This document shows, one piece after another, positions 31,703-37,384 of a stretch of 64,000 nucleotides of DNA; positions within the stretch are counted from its first letter, which is position 1, and the number at the start of each line of letters is the position of its first letter. The stretch comes from Wenyingzhuangia aestuarii. Its GTDB lineage: Bacteria > Bacteroidota > Bacteroidia > Flavobacteriales > Flavobacteriaceae. The notes beneath the pieces are model-generated. The model searched no databases and was not told where the DNA came from. It saw only the letters and a program-made list of their open reading frames with translations. The stretch is taken from the NCBI RefSeq assembly GCF_011927765.1, contig NZ_JAATJG010000003.1:186001-250000 (forward strand), written 5' to 3'. Both the position numbers and the translations under genes were made by a program.

Positions 31703-31772
31703 ATTTACAGCAATTTCTTCTTTAAACACATTACTTTTAAATGATGTTTAAATTTATCATTATAATATTCAT

Positions 31773-31780
31773 TAACTTTG
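31773..31780 (+). promoter_or_regulatory. Promoter -7 element of the RhuM-like gene
   Basis: TAACTTTG matches TAnnTTTG, 5 bp before the ATG pair at 31786/31789. The closeness implies a very short leader or use of the second ATG. Confidence 0.4.
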
Positions 31781-31785
31781 ATATT

Positions 31786-32865
31786 ATGATGAAAGATTTA
31801 ACAAAATCTGCTATTGACAGGCAAAACATATTAAACAATAGTAAGGCTATAGAACTAATTCAAAACAAAACAGGCCTAAGAGGTTTGTTCTACAAAGATG
31901 AATTTAAGTTCACAACCAAAATGGTTGCTGACTTTTATGATGTTGACACAAGGACAATCAAAAGATATGTAGATAAATATGAAGAAGAAATTATACATAA
32001 TGGCTATTGTGTATTAAAGGGTCAAAAACTTAAAGAGTTTAAAGAGATGTTTGGTCATCTTATATCTGCGAATGACGATGTCTCACAGAGGGACATGAAT
32101 GTCCCTCTGTCAAAAAAAGCGACTGAAAATCAGTCCTATAAAAAGATAAAGGCCTTAGCTGTTTTTAATTACAGAGCTGTTTTAAATATTGGAATGCTTC
32201 TGACTGAGAGTGAAAAAGCTAAACAAGTACGTAGCTTAATGTTAGACATTGTTATCGATATTATTAATAAAAAAATTGGCGGTTCTACTAAATATATTAA
32301 TCAAAGAGACGAAGAATTTTTACTTGCAATAACTAGAGAACCAGAATATCGAAAAGAATTTACTAGTGCATTAAACAACTACTTAGATATGGGTTTTGTA
32401 AAATATAGCATTTATACAGATGCTATATATAATGCCATCTTTAAAGAAAATGCAAAAGAATATAAAACCATTTTAAAATTAGAAGCAAAAGAAAGCCTTA
32501 GAAACACAATGTACTCCGAAGTGCTAAAGCTTATAGCTTCCTTTGAAATAGGTCTGGCTGATGAAATGCGTGAAAAATCTGAAGAACTTAAAAGAAAATT
32601 AAAACCTTCTGAATTAAATCTTCTTATTAATAATTTTGCTAATAAAAGGTTTTGGATTCCTCAAATTGAAGATGCACGTGCAAAAATGGCAACACGAGAT
32701 TATGGTTTACGTAATATTGTTCATGAACGTTTAGAAAACTATATAGGGTCTTTAAGTAAAGAAGATCATAATAAATTCTTAGGAGAAAAAAGTGACGATT
32801 TAATTAGTAGAGTATTGGATAACCCTCAATTAATTGATGTTTTCAAAAGGTTAAAAGATAGATGA
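31786..32865 (+). CDS. RhuM-like DNA-binding protein, partner of a Doc/Fic enzyme
   Basis: A soluble protein of 359 aa. An HTH-like segment lies at residues 42-62 (FTTKMVADFYDVDTRTIKRY). A RhuM-type block follows at about 118-175 (YKKIKALAVFNYRAVLNIGM, KAKQVRSLMLDIVIDIINKK, TKYINQRDEEFL), and then a long helical C-terminal region. It overlaps the Doc/Fic gene by 4 bp (ATGA), as expected for a toxin-antitoxin-like pair, yet it is far larger than the usual Phd antitoxin. A 26-bp palindrome lies inside its coding sequence (32085-32110). The start is placed at 31786 because the longer frame from 31741 encodes a hydrophobic tail containing the promoter element. The function is inference. Confidence 0.75.
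   Translation: MMKDLTKSAIDRQNILNNSKAIELIQNKTGLRGLFYKDEFKFTTKMVADFYDVDTRTIKRYVDKYEEEIIHNGYCVLKGQKLKEFKEMFGHLISANDDVSQRDMNVPLSKKATENQSYKKIKALAVFNYRAVLNIGMLLTESEKAKQVRSLMLDIVIDIINKKIGGSTKYINQRDEEFLLAITREPEYRKEFTSALNNYLDMGFVKYSIYTDAIYNAIFKENAKEYKTILKLEAKESLRNTMYSEVLKLIASFEIGLADEMREKSEELKRKLKPSELNLLINNFANKRFWIPQIEDARAKMATRDYGLRNIVHERLENYIGSLSKEDHNKFLGEKSDDLISRVLDNPQLIDVFKRLKDR
32085..32110. repeat. 26-bp palindrome inside the RhuM-like coding sequence
   Basis: ACAGAGGGACAT and ATGTCCCTCTGT are exact inverted copies of 12 bp separated by GA. The arms are GC-richer than the surroundings and encode part of the linker QRDMNVPLS. It could be an intragenic operator or a strong mRNA hairpin. Confidence 0.75.
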
Positions 32866-33311
32866 AAATTAAATTCCAATATTTTACTACAACTTACGCT
32901 ATTCAAGTACATGATAATATCATCAAAGAATCAGGTGGATTAATGGGGATAAAGGATACAGGCCTAATAGACAGTACTCTTTACCATATTCAGCACGAGT
33001 TATATTACCCAGATATAGAACATAAACTTACACATATATTATTTTCATTCAACAAAAACCATTGTTTTAATGATGGTAACAAAAGAGCTTCTTTAGCTCT
33101 TTCTGTGTACTTCTTAGCTATAAATGACTTAGATTTTTTAATAGATAAATTTATTATTAAAATGGAAAACATTGTTGTTGATGTGGCAGACAATAGAATC
33201 AATAAAGAACTGCTTTTTGACATTATATCGTCTATCTTATACGAAGATGATTATTCGGAATCTTTAAAGTTAAAAATTATTAATGCTAAAATTAATGGTG
33301 AACCTATATAA
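32862..33311 (+). CDS. Doc/Fic-family protein (death-on-curing type)
   Basis: A 149-aa Fic-fold protein with the active-site motif HCFNDGNKRAS at residues 67-77, matching HxFxxGNKR. The family start GLMGIKDTGLIDSTLYHIQ is typical of Doc. The second Arg of AMP-transferring Fic enzymes (GNGR) is Lys-Arg here, so a Doc-like phosphotransferase acting on a translation factor is the better guess. No inhibitory alpha helix motif is evident. It is translationally coupled to the upstream RhuM-like gene. Toxicity is not shown by sequence. Confidence 0.85.
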   Translation: MKIKFQYFTTTYAIQVHDNIIKESGGLMGIKDTGLIDSTLYHIQHELYYPDIEHKLTHILFSFNKNHCFNDGNKRASLALSVYFLAINDLDFLIDKFIIKMENIVVDVADNRINKELLFDIISSILYEDDYSESLKLKIINAKINGEPI

Positions 33312-34369: not shown

Positions 34370-34448
34370 TAATTTTAAAGTTTTTAAAACTTTTTACGCA
34401 ACCCTTTTTTATCATTTCCATCTACTTAACAGCTACTAATTAAAAAAG

Positions 34449-34580
34449 ATGATGATGGTATTAAAAACAACAGTACGATTTATTTTTACACTTAGTTTTA
34501 TTTACATTTTATACTTTTTAGATGTTTTAAACGCAACCTTTCGCAAAATGGTGCATCTATACAATAGAAACTTTAAATAA
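34449..34580 (+). CDS. Small single-TM protein, 43 aa
   Basis: Three consecutive ATGs at 34449, 34452 and 34455 open a 43-codon frame. It encodes a basic N-terminus (VLKTTVR), a hydrophobic helix (FIFTLSFIYILYFLDVL) and a basic, hydrophilic end (RKMVHLYNRNFK). The stop lies 6 bp before the next gene, which supports co-transcription. The family is unknown. Confidence 0.5.
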   Translation: MMMVLKTTVRFIFTLSFIYILYFLDVLNATFRKMVHLYNRNFK

Positions 34581-34586
34581 AGAATT

Positions 34587-35009
34587 ATGAAATACGCACT
34601 TTTATTATTTACGCTTACACTCGGACTTATTTCTTGTAGCAAACAACAAGATTTTCCAAAATTTCACTTAGAAGCTATTCAAGTTGATGATTTAATCATT
34701 CCCGACACAATAACCTATCAATCGGAACTTGATGTTACTTTTAAATACACCTTACCTAATAGCTGTTATTATTATAACGATCTTTATTATGTAGCTAATG
34801 ATTCTGTAAGAACCACAGCTATTATTGCCTATGTTGATGAGGAAGCTATATGTACTCAAGCAACCAAAGAAGAAGAGGTTACCATTCATTTTAAAGTTGA
34901 ACAAGAAGAAGATTACATTTTTAAACTTTACAAAGGAGTAGATGAAGACAACAAATCTATTTATGAAGAAAAAATTGTTAGAGTTATTGAAGAAGATGAA
35001 GTTCAATAA
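34587..35009 (+). CDS. Lipoprotein of unknown function
   Basis: A 140-aa lipoprotein (lipobox LISC) with an acidic, beta-rich mature part. A strand series (LDVTFKYTLPNSCYYYNDLY, EVTIHFKVEQEEDYIFKLYK) suggests an immunoglobulin-like sandwich. Two cysteines (in NSCYYY and AICTQ) could pair. It lies 38 bp upstream of the sigma factor gene and may belong to the same unit. Confidence 0.65.
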   Translation: MKYALLLFTLTLGLISCSKQQDFPKFHLEAIQVDDLIIPDTITYQSELDVTFKYTLPNSCYYYNDLYYVANDSVRTTAIIAYVDEEAICTQATKEEEVTIHFKVEQEEDYIFKLYKGVDEDNKSIYEEKIVRVIEEDEVQ

Positions 35010-35047: not shown

Positions 35048-35587
35048 ATGCATCTTAAAAAAATCATAAAGCAATGTCAGCAAAACAACTCAAAAGCGCA
35101 ATCTGCGTTGTACGAGTTGTTTGCTCCTAAACTTTATGCGGTTTCTTACAAATACTCAAACAATCAACAAGAAGCAGAAGATAATTTACACGATGGATTT
35201 TTAACCATTTTACAAAAAATAGATCAGTTTAAACACAAAGGATCTTTTGAAGGATGGATGAAACGGATTGTAATAAATACCGCTCTTGAAAAATATAGAA
35301 AAGACAAAATTTTCCCTTTAATAAACGAAGAAATTAAAGACGAAGTTGTTCTAGAAATTGAAGATGAAGATATAGATTTAGAAATACTTTTAAACAGCAT
35401 TCAAAAACTACCAAACAGATATAGACTTGTCTTTAATCTATATGTTTTAGATGGTTATTCTCATAAAGAAATAGCCAAGATGCTTGAAATTTCTGAAGGG
35501 ACTTCTAAATCTAACTTATCTAGAGCCAAAGCAATTCTAAAAAAAGAATTAGAAAATAAACCACAGCAAAACCAAAACAATTTTTAA
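35048..35587 (+). CDS. ECF-type RNA polymerase sigma factor
   Basis: A 179-aa sigma-70 family factor of the extracytoplasmic-function type. Region 2 includes LYELFAPKLYAVSYKYSNNQ, AEDNLHDGFLTILQKI and FEGWMKRIVINTALEKYRK. Region 4 includes LPNRYRLVFNLYVLDGYSH, KEIAKMLEISEGTSKSNLSR. It is followed 2 bp later by a membrane protein with a short N-terminal cytoplasmic segment, which is the likely anti-sigma or signalling partner. Confidence 0.92.
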   Translation: MHLKKIIKQCQQNNSKAQSALYELFAPKLYAVSYKYSNNQQEAEDNLHDGFLTILQKIDQFKHKGSFEGWMKRIVINTALEKYRKDKIFPLINEEIKDEVVLEIEDEDIDLEILLNSIQKLPNRYRLVFNLYVLDGYSHKEIAKMLEISEGTSKSNLSRAKAILKKELENKPQQNQNNF

Positions 35588-35589
35588 CC

Positions 35590-36867
35590 ATGGAACCTAA
35601 AAACTTAGAAAGGTTATACCAAGAAAAATTGAAGGATTTAGAAATGAATCCTAACCCTGTGGTATGGAATAAAATTGAAAGTTCTTTGCTAGCACAGCAA
35701 AACTCTACAAAAGGAATTCTTTGGTACTGGACCTCTGGAACCATTGCAGTAGTATTACTTCTTGGATTTTTTATCATCAAACAAAATGCTTTACAACCTA
35801 TTTACAGCCACGTATATTTAACACAAACAGATAGTGTTTTAACTCCAAAAACAACGGTAAAAGATTTAAATATTAATATTTCAGCCACCTCAACACCCTA
35901 CAAGAAAAAAGCTAAAAATCATCAGCTTAAAAAAGAAAAAACGCAAGCTGTTCATTCCAAAAACATAATTGCAGAAAAAACATTTGCTCCTTTACAAAAC
36001 AAAAAAACAAGTGCTACATTAAAAAAGCTATCAAAAGAAAAAACAATTGTAAGCACTAAAAAAGAACCTCTTTTAAACTTCCAAAAGGATAAGCCCTTTT
36101 TAGCTCAAAAAACTCTTGCAGATTCTAAAACCAATACAAAGATTGCGAATAACAAATCGTCTAAAAAGGAATGGAGTATTGCTCCAATTATTTCACAATA
36201 TTACTACGGTGCTTTTTCTAACAATTCCCCTGTAGACAACAGGTTAGACAATGCTAAAAAAACAGGACAACTATCTACTTCTTACGGTGTAAACGTTGCC
36301 TACCAAGCAACTAACAAAATAAAGATAAAAACAGGAATTCATAGAATTAGTTTGCTTCAAACTACAGATGGAAATTTAGTATCAGGAATACAAAGAACCT
36401 CTTCTTTTGCAAACGCAAGCAAACAAGCTCCAAGCAAAAGCGCATTAATGCTAGATAATACATCCGCTAATTTTGACAGTAAATCTGAACTTACTTTTAT
36501 TGATAATTCCAGCAGTCAACTAGAACAAAGTATAGGTTACATAGAAATTCCTGTAGAAGTTAATTTTAGCATTTACCAATCTAAAAAATTTAAAATGTTT
36601 GCCGTTGGCGGACTTAGCACCTTATTTTTAACAGAAAATAATTTGCAAATACAGAGCGGACAATTTTCTTTTTCAGAAGGAGAAGCTAACAATTTAAACA
36701 ACTTAAACTTTAGTTTTAACCTTGGGACAGATTTTGAATATCATTTTTCTAGCAAGTGGTTTTTAAACCTTGCTCCGTCTCTAAAAATTCAGACACAAAC
36801 ATTTAGTACCTCTAACAACAACCCATATTTAATTGGAGTTTCAACAGGTGTTAATTATAAATTCTAA
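35590..36867 (+). CDS. Sigma-factor partner: N-terminal TM helix plus C-terminal OM beta-barrel
   Basis: A 425-aa protein. Residues 1-42 are a short, charged cytoplasmic segment (NLERLYQEKLKDLEMNPNP). One membrane helix follows at about 43-63 (ILWYWTSGTIAVVLLLGFFI), then a Lys-rich linker at 95-190. Residues ~195-425 have strands typical of an outer-membrane barrel (SIAPIISQYYYGAF, YIEIPVEVNFSIYQSKKFKM, FNLGTDFEYHF) ending GVSTGVNYKF. It starts 2 bp after the sigma factor gene. It has no cleavable signal, so the helix probably stays. It may span the envelope and hold the sigma factor, which is inference. Confidence 0.7.
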   Translation: MEPKNLERLYQEKLKDLEMNPNPVVWNKIESSLLAQQNSTKGILWYWTSGTIAVVLLLGFFIIKQNALQPIYSHVYLTQTDSVLTPKTTVKDLNINISATSTPYKKKAKNHQLKKEKTQAVHSKNIIAEKTFAPLQNKKTSATLKKLSKEKTIVSTKKEPLLNFQKDKPFLAQKTLADSKTNTKIANNKSSKKEWSIAPIISQYYYGAFSNNSPVDNRLDNAKKTGQLSTSYGVNVAYQATNKIKIKTGIHRISLLQTTDGNLVSGIQRTSSFANASKQAPSKSALMLDNTSANFDSKSELTFIDNSSSQLEQSIGYIEIPVEVNFSIYQSKKFKMFAVGGLSTLFLTENNLQIQSGQFSFSEGEANNLNNLNFSFNLGTDFEYHFSSKWFLNLAPSLKIQTQTFSTSNNNPYLIGVSTGVNYKF

Positions 36868-36871
36868 ACTT

Positions 36872-37384
36872 ATGAAAAGTATTATTTTCCTGTTTACAGC
36901 TCTTTGTCTGCTTTCTTGTTCCCAAAAAGACGATCAAGAAAAAGAAATAAAAGAAGTTTACAACAACGGCACTGCCTTTAACACCTTTCTAAACAACAGC
37001 AAATTAGTAGTTACAGATAAAGAGGGTGTTTACACCAAAGAATCTGCCATTGAAACCGGAAACAATATTGTTTTTGAACACAAATTTGTTGCAGATGACG
37101 AAGAAGGTATAGCCGATGATGAGTATTATGAAATTATCCGTTTTGAGATTAATGCCAATCTTACCCAATTTTCTTATGCCAATAAAGCATTAACCAACAT
37201 AAACCCAGTGCTATCTAAATATTGTTATTGTTACTTTCCTACAAGTCCAGAAAAATCTGTAGCTCCTACAGGGAGTGTAACGGGAAAAAAACAATCTAAC
37301 AATAAATGGGAAATCAATCTAAATCTTGTTTTTTATGGAGATGAGGCAAGAAATATTACAGAAACGTTTACCTTAAAAAATTAG
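36872..37384 (+). CDS. Lipoprotein of unknown function
   Basis: A 170-aa lipoprotein starting MKSIIFLFTALCLLSC. The mature part is acidic and beta-rich, with a cysteine pair in SKYCYCYFPTSP. ATG at 36872 is chosen over an in-frame TTG at 36833 that lies inside the preceding gene. It follows the barrel protein by 4 bp, so it belongs to the sigma factor operon, and it overlaps the convergent methyltransferase gene by 4 bp. Confidence 0.7.
   Translation: MKSIIFLFTALCLLSCSQKDDQEKEIKEVYNNGTAFNTFLNNSKLVVTDKEGVYTKESAIETGNNIVFEHKFVADDEEGIADDEYYEIIRFEINANLTQFSYANKALTNINPVLSKYCYCYFPTSPEKSVAPTGSVTGKKQSNNKWEINLNLVFYGDEARNITETFTLKN

Follow-up and report, generated by a model that had tools for sequence, protein, structure and literature searches.

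The window, that is, the whole stretch of DNA analysed, comprises 64,000 nt of Wenyingzhuangia aestuarii (assembly GCF_011927765.1, contig NZ_JAATJG010000003.1, positions 186,001-250,000, forward strand). The genes and predicted promoters considered here are the following:

34396..34423, + strand: predicted promoter 1 of a tandem pair for the operon, ACGCAACC-N-CATCT
34531..34558, + strand: predicted promoter 2 of the tandem pair, ACGCAACCTTT-N-GCATCT(A), 28 bp before the lipoprotein start codon
34587..35009, + strand: conserved upstream lipoprotein that opens the operon, 140 aa, predicted beta sandwich
35048..35587, + strand: ECF sigma factor, 179 aa, Das-like, with Pfam domains Sigma70_r2 and r4_2
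35590..36867, + strand: Dma-type anti-sigma factor, 425 aa, with tip (1-42), transmembrane (TM) helix (45-65), linker (~66-194) and barrel (195-425)
36872..37384, + strand: downstream lipoprotein, ATG at 36872, no homologue at the other loci compared

The upstream lipoprotein gene lies 38 bp ahead of the sigma gene, which is separated from the anti-sigma gene by a gap of 2 bp. For the genes at 35048-37384, frames and coordinates agree with those of the initial annotation. The sigma factor has the plain ECF layout, Sigma70_r2 lying at residues 21-86 and r4_2 at 112-162 (Pfam). Elsewhere in the window, positions 31741-33311 hold an overlapping gene pair whose products, of 374 and 149 aa, we take to be RhuM-like and Fic/Doc-like, respectively, possibly a toxin-antitoxin-like pair.

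Predicted architecture and distribution of the anti-sigma protein

Pfam matched the anti-sigma protein to OMP_b-brl_2 (PF13568; best stretch 221-394, E 2.7e-7, 31.3 bits against a cut-off of 27). Searched at E up to 10, it returned two OMP barrel families and nothing else, with PF13568 above its cut-off. TM prediction gave a single hydrophobic helix at 45-63. AlphaFold, run with a 100-row alignment (mean pLDDT 73.2 for the whole model), placed two tip helices (6-15 and 23-37) ahead of a TM helix at 45-65, followed by a low-confidence stretch of about 120 residues (67-~190) and then an eight-strand OmpA-like barrel at 195-424, modelled with pLDDT mostly >90 except in the loop 261-308. The linker, ~129 aa long, is disordered and rich in lysine (27/129). 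The order proposed in the initial annotation, a short cytoplasmic segment, one TM helix, a long Lys-rich linker and a C-terminal barrel, is borne out by prediction.

A sequence search for solved relatives of the anti-sigma protein yielded none that was credible. Structural comparison of the predicted barrel with solved structures (VIA-align) gave a Legionella porin as the top match (Z 18.6, rmsd 3.5, 187 aligned) and also matched NspA (Z 18.1, rmsd 3.1, 154 aligned), the OprF barrel (Z 18.0, rmsd 2.0, 133 aligned), OmpW (Z 17.6, rmsd 2.8, 170 aligned) and OmpA (Z 16.7). Because the best solved matches are outer-membrane proteins, we read the barrel as being of the outer-membrane type, and it is predicted to lie in the outer membrane. 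AlphaFold and VIA-align together support the earlier suggestion that one polypeptide could run from the cytoplasm to such a barrel.

Relatives of the anti-sigma protein were found in 126/149 Flavobacteriaceae genomes when the window protein was used for the search (E up to 1e-3), and a profile search gave matches at E up to 1e-20 in 316/397 genomes. Two named matching loci, both from Wenyingzhuangia, showed 60 and 45% identity over the best segment. A sigma gene adjoins the anti-sigma gene on the same strand in 131 of the 132 family loci, the sole locus without one (L091) ending at a contig edge, and the gap between the two genes lies between -20 and +20 bp in 110/131. Exactly one TM helix was predicted in 129/132 anti-sigma proteins. 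In the 100-row alignment, W26 is the one tip position among nine that are invariant, the other eight lying in the barrel; P21, I29 and L33 come close to invariance.

Six second-copy loci (L122, L125, L129, L130, L131 and L132) form a divergent subfamily in which the tip begins KDIG- or similar. They carry no promoter within the 400 bases before the sigma gene and are perhaps an insulated parallel switch. Separately, several frames of ~240-265 aa (G255:C8:446133, G281:C1:1226787, G328:C1:1587532 and others) match the tip, the TM helix and part of the linker and look too short for a barrel; this tip may also be used by other sensors.

Co-evolution of the tip with the sigma factor

We aligned 240 different natural sigma/anti-sigma pairs, 71 of them added from further loci, and performed mean-field direct-coupling analysis. 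The top inter-protein coupling joined sigma residue 161 to tip residue 7 (score 6.88), and the next joined sigma 44 to tip 22. Maxima in the controls, each run four times, were 1.21-1.56 for random pairing, 1.88-1.93 when the partner was swapped with that of a close relative and 1.82-2.00 for 40 random barrel columns, so that the top coupling exceeded any control more than threefold. Tip columns supplied six of the top 10 inter-protein pairs (1.5 expected) and 22 of the top 50 (7.6 expected), while the remaining top pairs were spread over 205 barrel and 19 TM columns. Dropping the 24 rows without D or E at tip 7 left 161/7 and 44/22 in the lead (216 rows).

At 161/7, 191 of the 240 rows combine R with D, 20 carry K-E (the window's own pair), three R-E and one K-D; the other 25, mostly from Bacteroidaceae-like genomes or the divergent subfamily, have different residues or a gap. 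Independent row pairs were compared on a FastTree tree built without columns sigma 161 and tip 7. Eight to nine of the 11 independent pairs co-changed between R-D and K-E, none changed in the opposite way and two to three were unchanged (sign test p 0.004-0.008). For 44/22, with column 44 kept in the tree, about 7.6 of 19 pairs changed the same way and 0.2 the opposite way (median p 0.016, range 0.004-0.18). A simpler mutual-information score, calculated for 169 pairs, placed the tip in four of the top 20 pairs (2.2 expected) and five of the top 50 (5.6 expected). Apart from its few best pairs, the tip is not favoured by this score, which counts against the contact reading, although not decisively.

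The direct couplings, far above their controls, indicate that tip residues 1-42 contact the sigma factor, which is the part to which the initial annotation had assigned this role. Since the strongest couplings are 161/7 and 44/22, helix 1 would meet the sigma-4 end and helix 2 would meet sigma-2. Dual contact with sigma-2 and sigma-4 has been reported for anti-sigma factors, including the two-helix CnrY (PMC7406223).

The upstream lipoprotein and the predicted promoter

Comparison of loci identifies the conserved lipoprotein of the system as the upstream gene at 34587-35009, which lies outside the interval that the initial annotation had covered. A profile for it gave a hit in 94/131 loci, 88 of them directly upstream in a first pass and one downstream. 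Among the other 37, eight incomplete extracts have the gene directly upstream in the genome table, as read by hand, and in a second locus set it was directly upstream in 59/71. By-hand reading of the tables further gave hits (E below 1e-9) in 104/126 genomes with the anti-sigma factor and in 0/23 without it, many of the latter being small, which confounds this co-occurrence.

After the lipid-bearing Cys, the homologues carry Ser at +2 in 67/83 and Asp at +4, +5 and +6 in 53, 71 and 51 of about 85 (88-row alignment), a sequence pattern resembling the surface-export signals SDDDD and SDDFE described in PMC5080379. The window copy reads CSKQQD, without the Asp run, and fits these signals poorly.

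AlphaFold predicted a beta sandwich for the upstream lipoprotein (mean pLDDT 93.7), with which Foldseek found no match at E 0.001 or better. The highest VIA-align matches, 5bmt (Z 6.8) followed by complement and others, were set aside as common sandwiches. Further matches fell in the C-terminal halves of 4pqx (Z 5.2, 3.6 A, 94 aligned) and 3k6o (Z 5.2, 3.4 A, 88 aligned), both of which resemble NigD by sequence; at Z <8 these two matches may also reflect a common sandwich. We rejected an identification with NigD by sequence. The whole-protein hhalign probability of 91.8 against NigD covers the signal peptide and the N-terminal half, and it vanishes for the mature part (0.1 and 0.0 against the C- and N-terminal parts of NigD). 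Among 85 members, the NigD Pfam family gave no match at E 0.01, and two matched NCBIfam NigD1/NigD2 weakly. The top coupling between lipoprotein and barrel was 1.64 (156 rows; shuffles 1.28-1.43). It gives no sign of binding, because the couplings of the lipoprotein to sigma (1.97) and to the tip (2.61) were higher although neither should touch it.

A bipartite promoter, ACGCAACC(TTT)-N-CATCTA, is predicted to precede the operon. Of 156 different sequences lying upstream of the lipoprotein gene, 154 contained GCAACC (average in shuffles 2.6) and 143 contained CAACC-16-ATCT (at most 12 for any such pattern in five shuffles). The aligned consensus of these regions reads ACGCAACCTTT, then CATCTA. 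The spacing between GCAACC and CATCT was 15 bp in 128/154 and 14 bp in three, and 23 had no exact CATCT. Twenty-two of the 37 loci without a lipoprotein hit carry a looser site before the sigma gene itself; the remaining 15 consist of eight incomplete extracts, six members of the divergent subfamily and one locus with another gene inserted. Over 131 loci (671 kb) the strict pattern occurred on the operon strand in 71 and never on the opposite strand, and the reversed pattern was absent.

We then counted sites in whole genomes. GCAACC-N14-16-CATCT occurs eight times in this genome and its reversal not once. Apparent lipoprotein genes follow each of the four sites that have the full ACGCAACC: the first gene of this operon, with two sites in tandem, a 210-aa gene and a 150-aa gene. 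The other four of the eight are not ahead of a lipobox gene. This genome and 20 relatives together yielded 16 strict sites in nine genomes, with no control matches; ten of the 16 lie before a lipobox gene (nine by script, one being the tandem site of the same gene), one before a sigma gene and five before other or no ORFs. Across the order, hand counts found the site in 28/30 sampled genomes of the family versus 7/166 of other families. The reversed control gave 1/30 and 8/166, so the matches outside the family are at chance level. Such a distribution agrees with autoregulation of the sigma factor and with a small predicted regulon rich in lipoproteins, against which stand the four of eight lax and six of 16 strict sites that do not lie ahead of a lipobox gene.

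A second, divergent promoter copy lies ~1.1-1.4 kb from another in L334 and L337 (genomes G005 and G006), G125, G032, G001, G199 and G368. In G125, ACGCAACCGTGTTTCCTCTTGGGCATCT is repeated identically at eight places, and a repeated element therefore mimics the promoter there. In G005 and G006 the second copy is followed by a 30-aa ORF, or by none, and further on by a gene that is presumably YceA/TrhO-like. In a study of F. psychrophilum, a gene for a YceA rhodanese is listed as having an ECF-type promoter (PMC9723704). The six promoter motifs of this flavobacterial transcriptome are, in their text descriptions, unlike the GCAACC/CATCTA promoter (PMC9723704), and our literature search found no paper on this promoter or on a flavobacterial Dma.

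Proposed mechanism and relation to known systems

We consider it very probable that the locus encodes a sigma factor with its Dma-type anti-sigma factor and that the pair works along the following lines. Judging from the co-evolving residues, tip helix 1 would hold the sigma-4 end and helix 2 sigma-2, and the sigma factor would, as in relatives, be kept from RNA polymerase at the inner membrane. The disordered linker would cross the periplasm to the eight-strand barrel, predicted to sit in the outer membrane. Release of the sigma factor would follow some change there, most likely through proteolysis at or in the TM helix, which is a guess by analogy. Once free, the sigma factor is predicted to transcribe ACGCAACC-N-CATCTA promoters, those of its own operon and of a few further, mostly lipoprotein, genes. 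The lipoprotein products may remodel the cell surface, by analogy with NigD lipoproteins, which are thought to do so in Bacteroides. One objection is that proteins anchored in both membranes are unusual; a fraction of the copies might be left half-assembled.

What the barrel senses was considered from its conservation. In 219 rows, with predicted topology, three of the four outward loops carry 2.44-2.70 bits versus 2.68-3.15 bits for the strands, while loop 2 is variable (1.49 bits). The conserved outer loops hint at a fixed outward partner or ligand. Alternatively, the barrel may be a built-in reporter of outer-membrane protein assembly that needs no ligand, an idea that we hold tentatively; it is a rival to ligand sensing and leaves the Dma assignment untouched. 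On this view, an overloaded assembly machine would leave an unfolded barrel with its C-terminal signal in the periplasm, leading to cleavage of the same molecule. The C-terminal Phe present in 128/132 anti-sigma proteins would suit such an assembly sensor, Phe being the typical end of outer-membrane assembly substrates. The related Reo, too, has been proposed to sense outer-membrane stress, probably (PMC13114119). However, the near-equal conservation of three outer loops and the strands suggests a specific outward-facing or lumenal function that goes further than assembly. A broader reading, which we regard as doubtful, would make the system a general outer-membrane stress switch of Flavobacteriaceae: one autoregulated lipoprotein-sigma-Dma module behind a near-invariant promoter, with the barrel as both sensor and test substrate of outer-membrane assembly and surface lipoproteins as the output.

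It is improbable that the sigma factor depends on the anti-sigma protein as a positive co-factor or membrane anchor instead of being inhibited by it. Co-evolution shows contact and not its sign, but the predicted contacts touch both sigma-2 and sigma-4, a dual mode described for anti-sigma factors (PMC7406223), and the deletion phenotypes of Dma1 and Dma2 are reported to depend on their sigma factors (PMC13088901).

The linker bears on a further alternative. In 240 sequences it measures 106-352 residues and is never shorter than 106; overall it is rich in N, E, K, T and S, and the sequence itself is not conserved. Fully stretched at 0.35 nm per residue, the shortest linker would reach ~37 nm, more than the width of the periplasm, and the lower bound therefore fits a spanning tether. 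It is very unlikely that the C-terminal region forms a soluble domain in the periplasm, which would make the protein a single-pass inner-membrane anti-sigma factor. Insertion of both a TM helix and a barrel of the other membrane would be unusual, but structure prediction of barrel and linker gives a membrane barrel at high confidence, whose eight strands are mostly at pLDDT >90 and whose closest structural matches are outer-membrane barrels, and the minimum linker length also argues against a soluble domain. The downstream lipoprotein, which the initial annotation had suggested as a ligand sensor and whose gene starts 4 bases past the anti-sigma gene, is most unlikely to fill this role and was rejected as a conserved partner, because among 370 loci (phmmer, E up to 0.1) it matched two copies of the window's own locus alone and is hardly part of a common mechanism.

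Returning to the Dma-type reading, one paper puts the share of Bacteroidetes ECF sigma factors associated with a class I anti-sigma factor at only 6%, so that other modes may be the prevalent ones (PMC7406223). In the literature found, the Dma design had been studied in gut Bacteroides; a large family of environmental bacteria now proves to carry it commonly. Single charge swaps at the co-evolving residue pairs offer a test of how sigma and anti-sigma factors recognise each other. With the shared promoter the regulon can be read in many species, and signal, release step and output become accessible outside the gut. What is added here are the tip-sigma co-evolution, the flavobacterial distribution, the upstream conserved lipoprotein and the bipartite promoter.

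In FecA-FecR-FecI, the state of the outer membrane likewise controls a cytoplasmic ECF sigma factor, through a separate TonB-dependent transducer and FecR. The window system differs in using one protein with an eight-strand barrel; Pfam at E up to 10 found OMP families in it and no FecR domain, and the eight strands do not correspond to a TonB-dependent transducer. Nor does it have a class I anti-sigma domain, of which helices 1 and 4 contact sigma, since in the AlphaFold model two helices precede the TM helix. To our knowledge, CnrY has no such linker and barrel. The window tip is likened to CnrY-type (class II) factors by helix count and predicted contacts, these having two helices of which the first goes to sigma-4 and the second to sigma-2 (PMC7406223).

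Five loci in Bacteroidaceae-like genomes (L165, L176, L184, L185 and L192) encode Dma3-like fusions with a homologous barrel, in which a sigma domain is fused to TM helix, linker and barrel, whereas the window system consists of two separate genes. Between sigma and TM in these fusions we found no clear tip domain (best E 0.0098, in one of the five). Such a fusion would be a tethered sigma factor that needs cutting to act.

We assign the window protein, as a flavobacterial member, to the dual membrane-spanning anti-sigma (Dma) family of Bacteroides, reportedly the subject of a 2024 PNAS paper on Dma1. In Bacteroides thetaiotaomicron, Dma proteins are described as an N-terminal anti-sigma domain, a TM helix, a long disordered tether and a C-terminal barrel, encoded alongside an ECF21 sigma gene in the pairs Dma1/Das1 and Dma2/Das2, and loss of Dma1 or Dma2 leads to more vesicles, dependent on the cognate sigma factor (PMC13088901). 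The one-protein trans-envelope design proposed in the initial annotation was right, yet it is not new, since the Dma family has the same architecture and is already in print (PMC13088901). EcfO/Reo pairs occur in B. fragilis and Phocaeicola vulgatus. In the latter, Reo is described as reaching through every compartment, and expression of nigD and NigD-family surface lipoproteins requires EcfO (PMC13114119).

Our comparison was made with homologues from 41 genomes judged Bacteroidaceae-like from NigD. Homologues of the anti-sigma protein occurred in 27/41 (match at E up to 0.1) and NigD in 33/41, and nigD stood beside a sigma/anti-sigma pair at nine loci. In one hhalign comparison each, the probability was 99.6 for the barrel, 98.3 for tip plus TM and 88.9 for the tip alone. 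When a nigD-adjacent sigma factor from such a genome was compared with the present genome, the window sigma came first of 15 hits at 3.2e-30, followed by one at 3.3e-11; this best-match test agrees with ECF21 membership and a Das-like sigma factor. The window system thus shares with Dma/Reo an ECF sigma gene beside a tip-TM-disordered tether-barrel protein, homologous barrels and tips, and a lipoprotein gene beside the pair, which there is nigD at nine loci. It differs in belonging to another order, in a conserved adjacent lipoprotein that is not NigD by sequence, in its own promoter consensus and in a strongly Lys-rich linker.
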